Source: Sphingomonas sp. Root710 (GTDB lineage: Bacteria; Pseudomonadota; Alphaproteobacteria; Sphingomonadales; Sphingomonadaceae). Taken from it: a DNA stretch of 64,000 nucleotides. Positions 27,114 to 59,132 of the stretch are shown here, piece by piece. The stretch spans positions 753,933-817,932 of the forward strand of contig NZ_LMIB01000001.1 in the NCBI RefSeq assembly GCF_001429065.1. Direction: 5' to 3'. The notes under the pieces were generated by a model. That model was not told the DNA's origin. It saw nothing but the letters and a program-made list of their open reading frames with translations, and searched no databases. The position numbers were made by a program, and so were the translations under genes. Numbering within the stretch: the stretch's first letter is position 1; each line of letters starts with the position of its first letter.

Positions 27114-28612
27114 GCGGGGAGGCGACGATCGCGTCCGCCGACATCCCTTATGGCTTTGCGCGGCGCATGGGACTGGTGCCCTTGCCCGGTAATGATGCCG
27201 AGGGCCGTCCGCTGATCGGGATGAGCAGCGCCGCCGATCGCAGCGCGCTGATCGAGCTTCGCCGCCATCTCGGCCATGGTTTCGCGATCGAGGCGTTGAC
27301 ACCCGAGCGTTTCGAACGTGCATTGTCCGAACATTATGCCGTCGATGGCGAGACCGCCGAATTGCTGGGCGGCGCGCTGGTGATGGGCGAGGAACTGAGC
27401 GCGCTCGCCAGCGAACTGCCGACCAGCGCCGATCTGCTCGACAGCGCCGACGACGCGCCGGTCATCCGCCTGATCAACGGCATGATCGCCGAAGCGGTGC
27501 GCAACGGCGTTTCCGACATCCATTTCGAACCTTATGAGAGTGGCCTGGTCGTCCGTATGCGGATCGACGGGGTGCTGGCGGAGCGGCTTCGCCTGCCGAT
27601 CGCGGTCGCGCCGCTGGTCGCCAGCCGGATCAAGGTGATGTCGCGGCTCGACATCGCCGAACGCCGCCTGCCGCAGGACGGCCGCATCGGCCTGTCGATC
27701 GCCGGGCGGCTGCTTGACGTGCGCGTCTCGACGCTGCCGGGGCGGGCTGGCGAGCGCGTGGTGCTGCGCATCCTCGACAAGGCGGCGGCGGGGATCGCGC
27801 CCGATGCTTTGGGCATGCCGGCGACGATCCAGGCGGCGTTCGAGCAGGCGCTGGGCGATCCGAACGGCATCATTCTCGTCACCGGGCCGACCGGATCGGG
27901 CAAGACGACGACGCTCTATGCGGCGCTGCGCCTGCTCAACGATGGCAGCCGCAACATCCTGACGGTCGAAGACCCTGTCGAATATGCGGTCGATGGCGTC
28001 GGCCAGACCCAGGTCAATCCAAAGGTCGGCCTCGATTTCGCGGCGGGGCTGCGCGCGATCCTGCGCCAGGACCCCGATGTCGTGATGGTGGGTGAAATCC
28101 GCGACCGCGAGACCGCCGACATCGCGATCCAGGCGTCGCTGACCGGCCATCTCGTCCTGTCGACCGTCCATACCAACGATGCGGTCGGCGCGATCACCCG
28201 GCTGCGCGACATGAAGATCGAGCCCTTCCTGATCGCCTCCACCCTGCGCGCGGTGATCGCGCAGCGGCTCGTCCGGCGGCTTTGCCCGGCCTGCAACATC
28301 ACCGATTATCCGCCGCCGGGCGTGCGTAGCGCGCTCAAGCTCAAGAAGGACGAACTGGTCCGCGTGCCGCGCGGATGCGACGCCTGCGGCCATAGCGGCT
28401 ATCGCGGGCGGATCGGGCTGTTCGAAATGGTCCGGATCGACGATCGGCTGCGCGCCGCGATCAACGACAATGCCAGCGAGGATGCGATCGCGAAGATCGC
28501 CTTCGCCGATGGCGACACGCTCGCCAAGGCGGCGCGCCGTCTGGTTCGCGAGGGGGTGACCAGTGCGGAGGAGGCGCTGCGGATATTGCGCAGCGACGCC
28601 GGCGATGGTTGA
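27110..28612 (+). CDS. gspE: GspE cytoplasmic secretion ATPase
   Basis: A 500-residue hexameric ATPase that powers pseudopilus growth. Walker A is GPTGSGKTTTLYAALRLL, the Asp box is TVEDPVEY, Walker B is PDVVMVGEIRDRETADIA, and the His box is LSTVHTNDAVGAITRL. The tetracysteine zinc site appears as CPAC and CDACG. It has the N1/N2 domains that bind GspL. Length is normal. It overlaps gspF by 8 bases. Confidence 0.96.
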   Translation: MSGEATIASADIPYGFARRMGLVPLPGNDAEGRPLIGMSSAADRSALIELRRHLGHGFAIEALTPERFERALSEHYAVDGETAELLGGALVMGEELSALASELPTSADLLDSADDAPVIRLINGMIAEAVRNGVSDIHFEPYESGLVVRMRIDGVLAERLRLPIAVAPLVASRIKVMSRLDIAERRLPQDGRIGLSIAGRLLDVRVSTLPGRAGERVVLRILDKAAAGIAPDALGMPATIQAAFEQALGDPNGIILVTGPTGSGKTTTLYAALRLLNDGSRNILTVEDPVEYAVDGVGQTQVNPKVGLDFAAGLRAILRQDPDVVMVGEIRDRETADIAIQASLTGHLVLSTVHTNDAVGAITRLRDMKIEPFLIASTLRAVIAQRLVRRLCPACNITDYPPPGVRSALKLKKDELVRVPRGCDACGHSGYRGRIGLFEMVRIDDRLRAAINDNASEDAIAKIAFADGDTLAKAARRLVREGVTSAEEALRILRSDAGDG

Positions 28613-29828
28613 ATATGCCTGGCGCGCGATCGACGCGGGCGGGCGCGAACGCCGGGGCCGCATGCAGGCCGAAACGCCCGATCTGGCGAAGGCTCGGCTC
28701 GAGGCGCGCCGCTATTATGTCGTCGCGGTCGACAAGGCAGGCGAGGGGCCGGGGCCCAGCCTGACCAGCAATATCCTCAAGCGTCACCCGAAGCTGGGCA
28801 TCCGCGAACTCACCCTGTTCACCCGCCAGCTCGCCACGCTGGTTCGCGTCATGCCGATCGAGGAGGCGCTGCGCAGCATCGCCCAGCAGACCGCGAAGCC
28901 ACGCGCGGTGGTGGTGATCGAGGCGGTGCACGGCTCGGTGCTCAGCGGCCACCGGCTCGCCGATGCGCTGGCGGTCGAAGCGGCCAGCTTCCCGCCGCTC
29001 TATCGCGCGATGGTTGCGGCGGGCGAGGCGAGCGGCGCGCTGCCCGACATATTGGAACGGCTCGCCGATCTCCAGGAGCGGCAGGCGGTGGTGCGCAACA
29101 AACTGGTCACCGCGCTGGCCTATCCCGCCGCGCTGGCGCTGGTCGCCGCCGGGGTCGTGCTGGCGCTGATGCTGTTCGTCGTGCCCAAGATCGTCGAGCA
29201 GTTCGACACGGTCGGGCAGCAATTGCCGCTGCTCACCCGGATCGTGATCGCGACGTCGCATTTCATCGGAAATTGGTGGTGGGCGATGGTGCTGGGCGTG
29301 GCGGCGGGCACCGTGCTGGGCGTTCGCCTGCTCGCCGATGCCGAGCGCCGCCATGGTTTTGACGCCTGGCTGCTGCGGCTGCCGTTGCTCGGGCGGCTGA
29401 TCCGCGATCTCCACGCCGCGCGGATGGCGCGCACGCTCGCCAAGATGGTCGAGAGCCGGCTGCCGCTCGTCGAAGGCATCCAGATGACCACCGCGACCTT
29501 GCGCAACCAGGCGCTGCGCCGCGCCTCGCAGACGATCGTCGAGGATATCAAGGGTGGCTCCAGCCTGTCTGCCGCGCTACGCCGCGCGGGGCTGTTTCCC
29601 GCGATCTTCGTGCATATGGCGGCGAGCGGCGAAGCGGCGGGAAGGCTCGACGAAATGCTCGAACACGCCGCCGACTATCTGGAGCGCGAGTTCGACCTGT
29701 TCACATCGACCTTGCTGTCGCTGCTCGAACCGGCGGTGATCGTGGTGATGGGCGCGATCGTCGCGCTGATCATCCTGGCGATATTGCTGCCGGTGCTGCA
29801 GCTCGACACTCTGGCGGGACTGACATGA
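28605..29828 (+). CDS. gspF: GspF inner-membrane platform protein
   Basis: A 407-residue platform protein with two GspF repeats (LTLFTRQLATLVRVMPIEEA and RTLAKMVESRLPLVEGIQ) and three membrane helices, including ALVAAGVVLALMLFVVPKIV and the C-terminal VIVVMGAIVALIILAILLPV. It starts at ATG 28605 (MVEYAWRAIDAGG), 8 bases inside gspE. Its stop overlaps the first ATG of the gspG frame. Confidence 0.95.
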   Translation: MVEYAWRAIDAGGRERRGRMQAETPDLAKARLEARRYYVVAVDKAGEGPGPSLTSNILKRHPKLGIRELTLFTRQLATLVRVMPIEEALRSIAQQTAKPRAVVVIEAVHGSVLSGHRLADALAVEAASFPPLYRAMVAAGEASGALPDILERLADLQERQAVVRNKLVTALAYPAALALVAAGVVLALMLFVVPKIVEQFDTVGQQLPLLTRIVIATSHFIGNWWWAMVLGVAAGTVLGVRLLADAERRHGFDAWLLRLPLLGRLIRDLHAARMARTLAKMVESRLPLVEGIQMTTATLRNQALRRASQTIVEDIKGGSSLSAALRRAGLFPAIFVHMAASGEAAGRLDEMLEHAADYLEREFDLFTSTLLSLLEPAVIVVMGAIVALIILAILLPVLQLDTLAGLT

Positions 29829-30421
29829 TGCTTATCTCATTTACTCCGTCATCCCCGCGGGCGCGGGGATCCATAACCTCCGAGCCGCAAGAGGTTCGAG
29901 CCTCTGAGAATATGGATTCCCGCCTTCAGCCTTCGGCTGAAGTTTATCCTGAGCGCCTGCCTTGCAGGCAGTCGAAGGGCGGGAATGACGAGGAAGGGGA
30001 GAAGATCGACGAAAACGGCTTCACCCTGATCGAGTTGATGGTCGTTCTCCTCATCCTCGGCCTGCTCGCGACGGTCGTGGTGATCAACGTCATGCCAGCG
30101 CAGGACAAGGCGATGGCGGAGAAGGCACGGACCGATATCGCGCTGCTCGAACAGGCCGCCGAACGCTACCGGCTCGACATGTTCGCCTATCCGCCCACCG
30201 AGGCCGGATTGCAGGCGCTGGTCCAGGCGCCGGCGGGACTGGCGCACCCCGAGCGCTATCCGGCGGGAGGTTATATCAAGCGGTTGCCCGACGATCCCTG
30301 GGACAACCCCTATCATTATCAGACGCCGGGACGGCATGGCGCGGTCGACATCTACAGCCTTGGCGCGGACAATCGCGAGGGCGGCGAGGGGCAGGATGCC
30401 GATATCGGCAACTGGAAGTGA
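29825..30421 (+). CDS. gspG: GspG major pseudopilin with an inserted repeat in its leader
   Basis: The major T2SS pseudopilin. The mature part begins at the prepilin peptidase site G/FTLIELMVVLLILGLL and runs to a normal C-terminus with the YPAGGYIKRLPDDPWDNPY calcium-site region. The leader is abnormal: it would be 65 residues from ATG 29825 (overlapping gspF) or 36 from ATG 29912, whereas GspG leaders are usually under about 20. A 144-base dispersed repeat (29847-29990, exactly 48 codons) accounts for most of it and adds no stop codon. If removed, a 17-residue leader would remain. A third possibility is initiation at ATC 30006, 3 bases after AAGGGGAGAAG. The true start is uncertain; the mature protein is well supported. 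Confidence 0.85.
   Translation: MMLISFTPSSPRARGSITSEPQEVRASENMDSRLQPSAEVYPERLPCRQSKGGNDEEGEKIDENGFTLIELMVVLLILGLLATVVVINVMPAQDKAMAEKARTDIALLEQAAERYRLDMFAYPPTEAGLQALVQAPAGLAHPERYPAGGYIKRLPDDPWDNPYHYQTPGRHGAVDIYSLGADNREGGEGQDADIGNWK
29847..29990. repeat. 144-bp palindromic dispersed repeat inside gspG
   Basis: The ends are near-perfect inverted repeats: CGTCATCCCCGC at 29847 and GCGGGAATGACG at 29979 (one mismatch). Inside lie smaller hairpins: CCCCGC-GGGC-GCGGGG, CTTCAGC-CTTCG-GCTGAAG, and CCTGCC-TTGCAGG, plus the TCCTGAGC...GTCGAAGG pair. The style is that of alphaproteobacterial GTCATCCC-type repeats. It carries no gene of its own and is fully inside the gspG frame. A related but different copy lies at 59031-59113. 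Confidence 0.85.
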
Positions 30422-30863
30422 CGACGGGCGCGATCGCGGTTTCACGCTGATCGAGCTGATCGTCGTCCTGGCGATCATCGCGGTCGGCGCGACCGCCGTC
30501 ATGCTCAGCCTTCCGGGGCCCGAGCGCACCCTGCGCGACAGCAGCGAACGGCTTGCCGCCCAGGCGGCGGCGCTGCGCGACGCGGCGGTGATGTCGTCGC
30601 GGCCGATGGCGATCCGCCTCGTCGCGGGGGGCTATCGCTTCGAAAGCTTCGACGGCAAGGGCTGGGCGGCGGAAACCGAAAAACCGTTCCGCGCGGTCGG
30701 GCTGCCCGAGGGGATGGCGGTGGTCGCGGTGCCGTCGGGCGAGCAGCGCATACGTTTCGACACAACCGGGCTCGCCGATCCGGTGGTGTTGACGCTCGGC
30801 TATCGCGGGCTGCGGCGGACGGTGACGGTCGATGCGGGCGGGGGCGTGACGCTTGGCGGATAA
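30396..30863 (+). CDS. gspH: GspH minor pseudopilin
   Basis: A 155-residue minor pseudopilin. The 15-residue leader ends at G/FTLIELIVVLAIIAVG, followed by the hydrophobic assembly helix and a beta-rich domain (GYRFESFDGKGWAAETEKPF). ATG 30396 overlaps gspG by 26 bases and has AGGGGC upstream. Identity comes from position between gspG and gspI and from the leader plus fold. Confidence 0.88.
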   Translation: MPISATGSDDGRDRGFTLIELIVVLAIIAVGATAVMLSLPGPERTLRDSSERLAAQAAALRDAAVMSSRPMAIRLVAGGYRFESFDGKGWAAETEKPFRAVGLPEGMAVVAVPSGEQRIRFDTTGLADPVVLTLGYRGLRRTVTVDAGGGVTLGG

Positions 30864-31224
30864 GCGGCCCTCCGAACGCGGCTTCACGCTGATCGAGGTG
30901 CTCGTCGCGCTCGCGGTGTTCAGCCTTGCCGCGCTCACCCTGTTGCGCCTCGAGGGCGCGACCATGACCAACGCTCGGATGCTCGAAGTCCGCGCTGCTG
31001 CCGAGATCGTCGCGCGCAACCGCGCGGTCGAGGTGCTGACCGATCCCGACGCCCCGGTCATCGGCACCGCGAGCGGCAGCGAGATGCAGGCGGGACGGCC
31101 CTGGTCCTGGGTTCGTATCACGCGGCCAATGCCCGATGCCGGGCTGGTCGAGGTCCGCGTCATCGTCGCGAGCCCGTTCGGCGGCGAGGCGGCGTCGCTG
31201 ACCGTCTATCGGCGGACGGCGTGA
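30853..31224 (+). CDS. gspI: GspI minor pseudopilin
   Basis: A 123-residue minor pseudopilin with a very short leader (MADKRPSERG/FTLIEVLVALAV). It starts at TTG 30853, 11 bases inside gspH; a start at TTG is unusual but the short leader fixes it. GspI normally forms the pseudopilus tip with GspJ and GspK, which follow immediately. Confidence 0.87.
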   Translation: MADKRPSERGFTLIEVLVALAVFSLAALTLLRLEGATMTNARMLEVRAAAEIVARNRAVEVLTDPDAPVIGTASGSEMQAGRPWSWVRITRPMPDAGLVEVRVIVASPFGGEAASLTVYRRTA

Positions 31225-31805
31225 TGGCGCGGCAATCCGGCTTCACCCTCATCGAACTGCTCGTCGCGCTCGCTATCTTCGGGTTGATCGCGGTCGCGGG
31301 AGGCTATCTGCTCGGCTTCTCGTTGCGGGCGCAGGACAGCACGGGGCAGTCGCTCGACAGGATCGCCACGGTGCGCCGCGCCTCGGTGCTGCTCACGGCG
31401 GATATGGCGCAGCTGCTGCCCCGGATCAGCCGCGACGACCGGGGCGATCGTCAGCCGGCGGTGGTTGGTGACCAGACGACCCTCGGCTTCGTCCGCGGGG
31501 GCTGGAGCAACGACAGCGACGCGCCGCGTTCCTCGTTGCAGAAGGTCTCCTACAGCCTCGTCGATCGCGCGCTGGTCCGGACCAGCTGGCCGATGGTCGA
31601 CGGCGTCGCGCCCGATCGCGCTGTGCGCAGCCCGCTGATGACCGGCGTTTCTAAGATCGCGCTGCGCTATCGACGGCATGGGGTCTGGGCCGAGACATGG
31701 CGGCCGCGCCTGCCCGACGAGTTGCCCGATGCGGTCGAACTGGTGCTCACCGTCGACGGGCTCGGCGATATCCGTCAGCTGTTCCTGGTGGGGATCGGGC
31801 GATGA
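31224..31805 (+). CDS. gspJ: GspJ minor pseudopilin
   Basis: A 193-residue tip pseudopilin with leader MARQSG/FTLIELLVALAIFGLI. It starts at ATG 31224, overlapping the gspI stop by one base (TGATG). The rest is a beta-rich domain with no cysteine pattern of note. Order and length fit GspJ. Confidence 0.88.
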   Translation: MARQSGFTLIELLVALAIFGLIAVAGGYLLGFSLRAQDSTGQSLDRIATVRRASVLLTADMAQLLPRISRDDRGDRQPAVVGDQTTLGFVRGGWSNDSDAPRSSLQKVSYSLVDRALVRTSWPMVDGVAPDRAVRSPLMTGVSKIALRYRRHGVWAETWRPRLPDELPDAVELVLTVDGLGDIRQLFLVGIGR

Positions 31806-58997: not shown

Positions 58998-59030
58998 TCA
59001 CGCAAATCCGAGTTTCATCACTCTCACTTC

Positions 59031-59113
59031 GTCATCCCGGGCTTGACCCGGGATCCCGCTTTTCTACCTCCACGTTGGAAAGAAGCGGGACCCCGGGTCA
59101 AGCCCGGGGTGAC
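59031..59113. repeat. GTCATCCC-type palindromic repeat between convergent genes
   Basis: A long imperfect palindrome: GTCATCCCGGGCTTGACCCG at its left and the complementary CGGGTCAAGCCCGGGGTGAC at its right, with a second arm pair (CCCGCTT and AAGCGGG) around a short centre. It lies in the 135-base gap between two convergent genes, where it could act as a two-way terminator. It is the same class as, but not identical to, the repeat in gspG. Confidence 0.8.
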
Positions 59114-59132
59114 AATATGAAGTACCGCCGCA

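Follow-up and report, generated by a model that had tools for sequence, protein, structure and literature searches.

The major pseudopilin gene of the type II secretion system (T2SS) of Sphingomonas sp. Root710, gspG, contains a dispersed palindromic repeat that lies in frame within its prepilin leader, and inserts of other kinds recur in the leaders of gspG, gspH, gspI and gspJ across the Sphingomonadaceae. The position, frame and dispersal of the repeat, the recurrence of such inserts and their absence from the nearest relative can all be read from the genomes compared here. The explanation that we favour, with a probability of roughly 0.65, is that the gspG leader is a disposable, length-tolerant cytoplasmic tail that harbours in-frame repeats. 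The window, meaning the whole 64,000-nucleotide stretch that was analysed, contains the following features:

28563..29828, + strand: gspF, encoding the platform protein of the inner membrane, with the ORF limits as listed; the TGA stop codon (29826-29828) shares bases with the start of gspG; Pfam T2SSF 1.7e-53.
29825..30421, + strand: gspG ORF (major pseudopilin with a long leader), 198 aa by translation, with Pfam T2SSG and N_methyl.
29825..30019, + strand: sequence coding for the prepilin leader, of 65 residues to Gly(-1) by translation and the motif G/FTLIEL (the slash marking the cut); its product is expected to be removed by prepilin peptidase.
29847..29990, + strand: dispersed palindromic repeat, in frame, 144 nt, with two sub-repeats (about 1-81 and 66-144).
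29991..30016, + strand: leader between the repeat and the cleavage site, containing AAGGGGAG and an ATC, as compared with a relative that lacks the insert.
30396..30863, + strand: gspH, by Pfam, with a probable start 14 codons before the cleavage site; in-frame repeats occur here in relatives.
30853..31224, + strand: gspI, by ORF and Pfam, with a short leader starting 9 codons before the cleavage site.
31221..31805, + strand: gspJ, by ORF and Pfam, with a short leader and starts 5 and 6 codons before the cleavage site.

GspG matches T2SSG (PF08334, 2.6e-39) and N_methyl (PF07963, 6.1e-8, the latter from residue 63). The protein thus combines the T2SSG domain with the N-terminal methylation motif GFTLIEL, with G(-1), F(+1) and E(+5), and its gene lies downstream of gspF and upstream of gspH, gspI and gspJ, as expected of a T2SS major pseudopilin. 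The cleavage motif reads NG/FTLIEL, and the Gly(-1) codon, at 30017-30019, encodes residue 65. The gspG ATG at 29825 overlaps the gspF stop and is followed immediately by a second ATG; past these two, the only in-frame ATG, GTG or TTG in the leader is the ATG at 29912, 35 codons before the Gly. The leader is accordingly 65 residues long from ATG 29825 or 36 from ATG 29912, and would be 17 without the repeat. Type IV prepilin leaders are quoted at 6-7 or 15-30 residues in one account (PMC6201914), a trait that is typical rather than strictly defining, and GspG departs from it at either length. An earlier note, made from this DNA alone, had given the same coordinates and lengths (65, 36 and 17 residues, and a 144-nt element of 48 codons without a stop), all of which proved correct when the ORF and its translation were re-read; a fresh scan for in-frame ATG, GTG and TTG codons agreed with it that none lies nearer to the cleavage site than ATG 29912.

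The possibility that the long leader reflects an error of assembly or annotation, or a defective gspG, is scarcely credible. The genome is a draft of 21 contigs, but the same pattern is seen with other repeats in many genomes, the mature GspG domain and the ORFs from gspE to gspJ are intact in the window, and Peptidase_A24 has two matches over the family cut-off in the Root710 genome.

The repeat itself is stop-free in the gspG frame over its 48 codons. Its ends are inverted and near-perfect (CGTCATCCCCGC / GCGGGAATGACG, matching at 11 of 12 positions as read by eye), which bears out the earlier description of an element with near-perfect inverted ends, here placed at 29847-29990. That the repeat is dispersed, as was also claimed, is clear from the 19 matches at E<=0.01 in its own 4.77-Mb genome, which fall at 15 distinct places once overlapping and both-strand matches are merged. 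Moreover, matches at E<=1e-6 occur in 12 of the 31 genomes searched, its own counted. When the genome copies inside coding frames were counted, as the earlier note had proposed, a GC3-based ORF map placed just one of the 15, the gspG copy, within an ORF; one of the remaining 14 overlaps the next ORF start by 5 nt. The element is also composite, since parts 1-81 and 66-144 are each found alone elsewhere. With many similar copies, inverted ends and a mostly extragenic distribution (14/15 outside ORFs), it resembles REP/BIME and MITE-type palindromes, which are likewise dispersed, palindromic and composite; unlike those extragenic elements, one Root710 copy lies within an ORF.

The in-frame state is not intrinsic to the 144-nt repeat, because other copies differ in length and some carry stops. 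Among the nine other full-length copies listed, six measure 143 nt and the remaining three 141, 140 and 138 nt, and a stop in the gspG frame occurs in 4 of 11 other own-genome copies. The idea that the frame is built into the repeat was rejected on these figures, 7 of the 9 listed copies being 143 or 140 nt long.

The RNA fold predicted for 29825-30030 is strong (z = -4.4, with 0 of 200 shuffles as good). The palindromy of the window's repeat rests on this fold and on the inverted ends, because the window's own gspG leader was not listed at p<=0.03 in an ungapped palindrome scan of leaders. An Rfam search of 29700-30200 gave no family above its gathering score, the weak matches to FtrB (E 0.32) and Chlorobi-1 (E 0.039) falling far below. 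Elsewhere in the window, at 59024-59120, there is another strong inverted repeat, of the GTCATCCCGGGCTTGACCCGGGATCCC type, with 38-nt arms that are 87% complementary; it too looks like a dispersed repeat.

Within the genus, gspG of this type is present at E<=1e-40 in 5 of 14 genomes. In seven of the other nine the sole GspG is a divergent relative (42-47% identity), and one genome, G001, has both types. In the nearest relative, G002, the mature GspG is 93% identical and the leader has no insert, with 14 codons before the Gly. The refuting condition set in the earlier note, an equally long leader in relatives without the repeat, did not apply to G002. Four of the five genomes with this gspG carry an insert in the same leader, and the inserts differ in type: a CTCCCCTCCC palindrome in G001, CGTCATCCCGGCGG in G006 and GTTCGTCTCGAG in G011. 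Each of these is dispersed in its own genome, with 52, 80 and 68 matches, respectively, counts that include both-strand matches of palindromes and for which 40 candidates were scored in each of the three genomes. When the four inserts were compared pairwise, five of the six comparisons fell within shuffled scores; the window and G006 inserts share a 25-nt end of the GTCATCCC type (CGTCATCCC...), with a score of 13 against a shuffled maximum of 12. Given these similar ends, the four inserts represent at least three families. The G011 family has no match in Root710 (G000), G001 or G002 at E<=0.001. The distance from the gspF stop to the Gly codon in the five genomes is 38 nt (G002), 110, 113, 188 and 212 nt, every value being 2 mod 3, so that each insert extends its leader by a multiple of three, and the four longer gaps (110-212 nt) are stop-free only in the gspG frame. 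Inserts at one junction in four of five relatives seem many for a neutral target, pointing to insertion preference or selection, and such recurrence is hard to explain by mere tolerance.

Leaders were also surveyed across the family. A gspG match at E<=1e-38 is present in 152 of 397 family genomes, not all of which were fetched, and 154 gspG loci were read, some of them from other families of the order and two from a single genome (G174). A cleavage site was located in 149 of these loci and the gspF end in 139 of the 149, the other 5 and 10 being dropped. In the 139 junctions, taking the outermost canonical start that coincides with or follows the gspF stop, the leaders have 8 to 72 codons before the Gly, with a median of 23. 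As many as 39 of the 139 exceed 30 codons, which argues, if indirectly, for an option raised in the earlier note, namely that the peptidase accepts a long leader; it is the best supported of the options raised there. Leaders of gspH, gspI and gspJ were added from 81 operons, comprising the window, 20 operons chosen mostly for inserts and 60 spread over genera. Where the gap is at least 90 nt, 83 of 92 leaders are stop-free in frame, versus 24/92 in the +1 and 54/92 in the +2 frame; a start close to the preceding stop is present in 88 of the 92, and in 38 the last 25 codons contain no canonical start. Selection of the frame for positive charge gave no signal, the mean net charge being 3.7 in frame and 4.9 and 5.7 in the other frames (n = 127).

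These frame statistics bear directly on another option from the earlier note, a translation start at a rare codon such as the ATC close to the cleavage site, which would make the open frame upstream accidental. In the window, AAGGGGAG lies directly upstream of the ATC, and in the gspG of G006 an internal ATG stands 8 codons ahead of the cleavage site, both of which are compatible with such a start. A start of this kind predicts no frame constraint, yet long leaders are open far more often in frame than in the other two frames and nearly all have a start close to the previous stop. The rare-codon start was discarded as a candidate on these grounds, and such a non-canonical start is very improbable. 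Ribosome bypassing of the hairpin, which needs neither a stop-free insert nor a length that is a multiple of three, is unlikely.

Palindromes were found in gspG, gspH, gspI and gspJ leaders across the Sphingomonadaceae, and the gspG leader, which the earlier note had treated as a single oddity, is one instance of a pattern that recurs at four pseudopilin genes. An inverted repeat at p<=0.01 is present in 35 leaders, from 11 genera, out of the 202 whose gap is 45 nt or longer; 44 were tested by shuffling (with a p floor of 0.005), and the 158 without a score-9 inverted repeat were left unshuffled. In G234, all four leaders contain a palindrome-derived WAPA(S/F/C)AGALS segment. A few leaders are irregular. 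Among the 35 with palindromes, the gspI leader of G033 has a stop and unknown bases in the gap, and the gspI gap of G092, at 369 nt, has an in-frame stop. In G308 (L062), gspG lacks an in-frame start close to the gspF stop, its sole starts lying 9 and 18 codons ahead of the Gly; in G006 (L310), none of the 15 open codons that precede the gspI cleavage site is an ATG, GTG or TTG. Long open frames were also met among 48 other loci read from a wider contig scan, and an outgroup baseline for leader length could therefore not be fixed.

A second kind of insert consists of tandem arrays in which the cleavage region is repeated in 33-nt steps, with RRSAEHGFTPV units. The 20-mer GTTCCGCCGAACACGGCTTC is present in 22 of the 397 family genomes, with 31 exact copies in G174, and its reversed control gave 0 among the matches listed. 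Sixty-two of its 66 listed places fall between -400 and +2300 nt relative to gspG, the unlisted G174 copies being outside this count; the other four (G220, G341) are in frame, inside or just before a prepilin motif. With a looser motif, slightly stricter for gspG than for the other three genes, array copies were found in 7/139 gspG, 15/75 gspH, 8/69 gspI and 13/65 gspJ leaders. Arrays occupy the gspG, gspH, gspI or gspJ leaders of L074 and L322 (both G174), L323 (G203), L325 (G130) and L324 (G093). Each upstream array copy presents G-F-T without a following hydrophobic helix, and, because that helix is absent, the upstream copies are likely to represent decoy cleavage sites.

Strong palindromes are concentrated in the leaders relative to the rest of the operon. 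Between the gspF end and the gspJ start of 55 of the 60 spread operons, which were unselected for inserts, leaders make up 13,767 nt and hold five strong palindromes, and the other 102,861 nt hold one. For the 21 chosen operons (the window and 20 others, G002 among them) the counts are 13 in leaders versus 0 elsewhere, a comparison that is partly circular for gspG but not for gspH, gspI and gspJ. Shuffled regions held any strong palindrome in 6 of 760 cases. When the 21 chosen operons were scanned over a longer range, in most cases about 12.5 kb, 20 strong palindromes came up, 7 of them at places other than prepilin leaders. Two of these, in G234 and G184 (L315, L316), occupy the gspE/gspF junction some 1.3-1.45 kb upstream of the gspG cleavage site, where, unlike the prepilin-leader palindromes, they sit between stop and start and out of frame. 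A further palindrome in G184 (L316) is situated close to the start of gspE, roughly 2.9 kb upstream of the gspG cleavage site, and is partly in frame with the gspE N-terminus; another, in G164, falls within an open frame some 1.9 kb downstream, and three more sit further downstream.

It is conceivable, in line with the remaining option of the earlier note (tuning of output by mRNA structure), that the insert is a selected RNA element, in which a gspF-gspG hairpin stabilises or paces the downstream mRNA to yield an excess of major pseudopilin, the peptide being a by-product and the frame being kept since the hairpin lies inside an ORF. The strong fold in the window, the dispersed-repeat inserts at the gspF/gspG junction in four of five genus genomes and the concentration of strong palindromes in leaders are all consistent with such a role. 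Nevertheless, the nearest relative has no insert, most leaders with gaps of at least 45 nt (158/202) contain no score-9 inverted repeat, the 33-nt arrays are another kind of repeat, and palindromes also occur at gspH, gspI and gspJ, where an excess of product is not expected, so this explanation appears rather unlikely.

It is quite unlikely that the pattern stems from an insertion preference, whereby a palindrome spreader favours tight stop-start overlaps or operon sequences and the frame acts as a later filter. The arrival of at least three unrelated families at one site, the placement of 14/15 own-genome copies outside ORFs with the gspG copy also at a gene junction, and the inserts at the gspE/gspF junction in G234 and G184 would fit such a preference. 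A single target would, however, have to serve unrelated families, and no target-site duplication could be read, the leader flanking the gspG insert having diverged from that of the insert-free relative.

Differences between sister sequences are informative about constraint. In 32 sister pairs, chosen with equal gaps and mostly with leaders that have no palindromes, differences by codon position number 88, 69 and 162 in the leaders versus 109, 48 and 702 in the mature part. Judged by these counts, the leader is clearly less constrained than the mature protein, though it does not appear to be fully free.

Under the favoured explanation, that of a disposable leader, translation would begin at ATG 29825, coupled to the gspF stop, and the ribosome would read through the palindromic repeat into the mature pseudopilin. 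The prepilin peptidase would then cut after Gly65, with the repeat-encoded peptide being discarded and the mature protein left unchanged. With the start of the gene bound to the preceding stop codon, and with no canonical start close to the cleavage site, only stop-free inserts whose length is a multiple of three would survive. The prepilin leaders of gspG, gspH, gspI and gspJ would in this way be recurrent safe sites for palindromes and 33-base duplications in the Sphingomonadaceae; repetitive DNA, it seems, can find shelter in leaders that are cleaved off. Coupled use of the start, the membrane orientation, cleavage of the long precursor and near-neutrality are the elements of this account that we infer. 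A bolder proposal is that the leaders are a dedicated, fast-evolving landing zone, in which selfish palindromes of several families and 33-base decoy arrays are repeatedly captured in frame, the peptide is erased by the peptidase, and the resulting length and RNA structure are selected as a means of tuning pseudopilin output or assembly; this is possible but doubtful.

Known prepilins provide some precedent. The pilin leader faces the cytosol and is removed by prepilin peptidase (PMC7248040), and the PilA of Geobacter sulfurreducens, which resembles GspG in its elongated leader (29 residues), is still cleaved, by PilD (PMC6201914). It differs in being a type IV pilin rather than a T2SS pseudopilin, in having a second isoform with a 10-residue leader and in its shorter leader (29 versus 65 residues), and the available part of that account mentions no repeat. 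No prepilin leader of 65 residues was found in the literature searched, and cleavage at that length would be an extrapolation from the quoted 6-7 or 15-30 residues.

The closest parallel for the repeat is with the Rickettsia palindromic elements (RPEs), which are about 150 bp in length and lie in frame in protein genes (Ogata 2000/2002, via the review PMC10969869). Both are short dispersed palindromes placed in frame in coding genes, and in-frame insertion into a protein gene is evident for the gspG repeat from its translation. The parallel is one of description and concerns another lineage: RPEs are reported from unrelated metabolic genes, where they form translational fusions, whereas here several families occupy the presumably cleaved leaders of four paralogous genes, and the other placed copies in Root710 are not in ORFs. 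Repeats in pseudopilin leaders were not found reported in the literature searched. What is already known is the presence of in-frame palindromes in Rickettsia proteins; new here are the presumed disposability of the site, the range of families and their presence at four paralogous genes.

The findings carry a warning for gene callers, which may trim long leaders to the nearest start codon. Moreover, if the favoured explanation is true, these leaders would provide a natural test of the length of cytoplasmic leader that prepilin peptidase tolerates. Finally, removal of the leader would make a coding site as permissive as intergenic DNA, and repeats could inhabit a gene while leaving its product unaltered.
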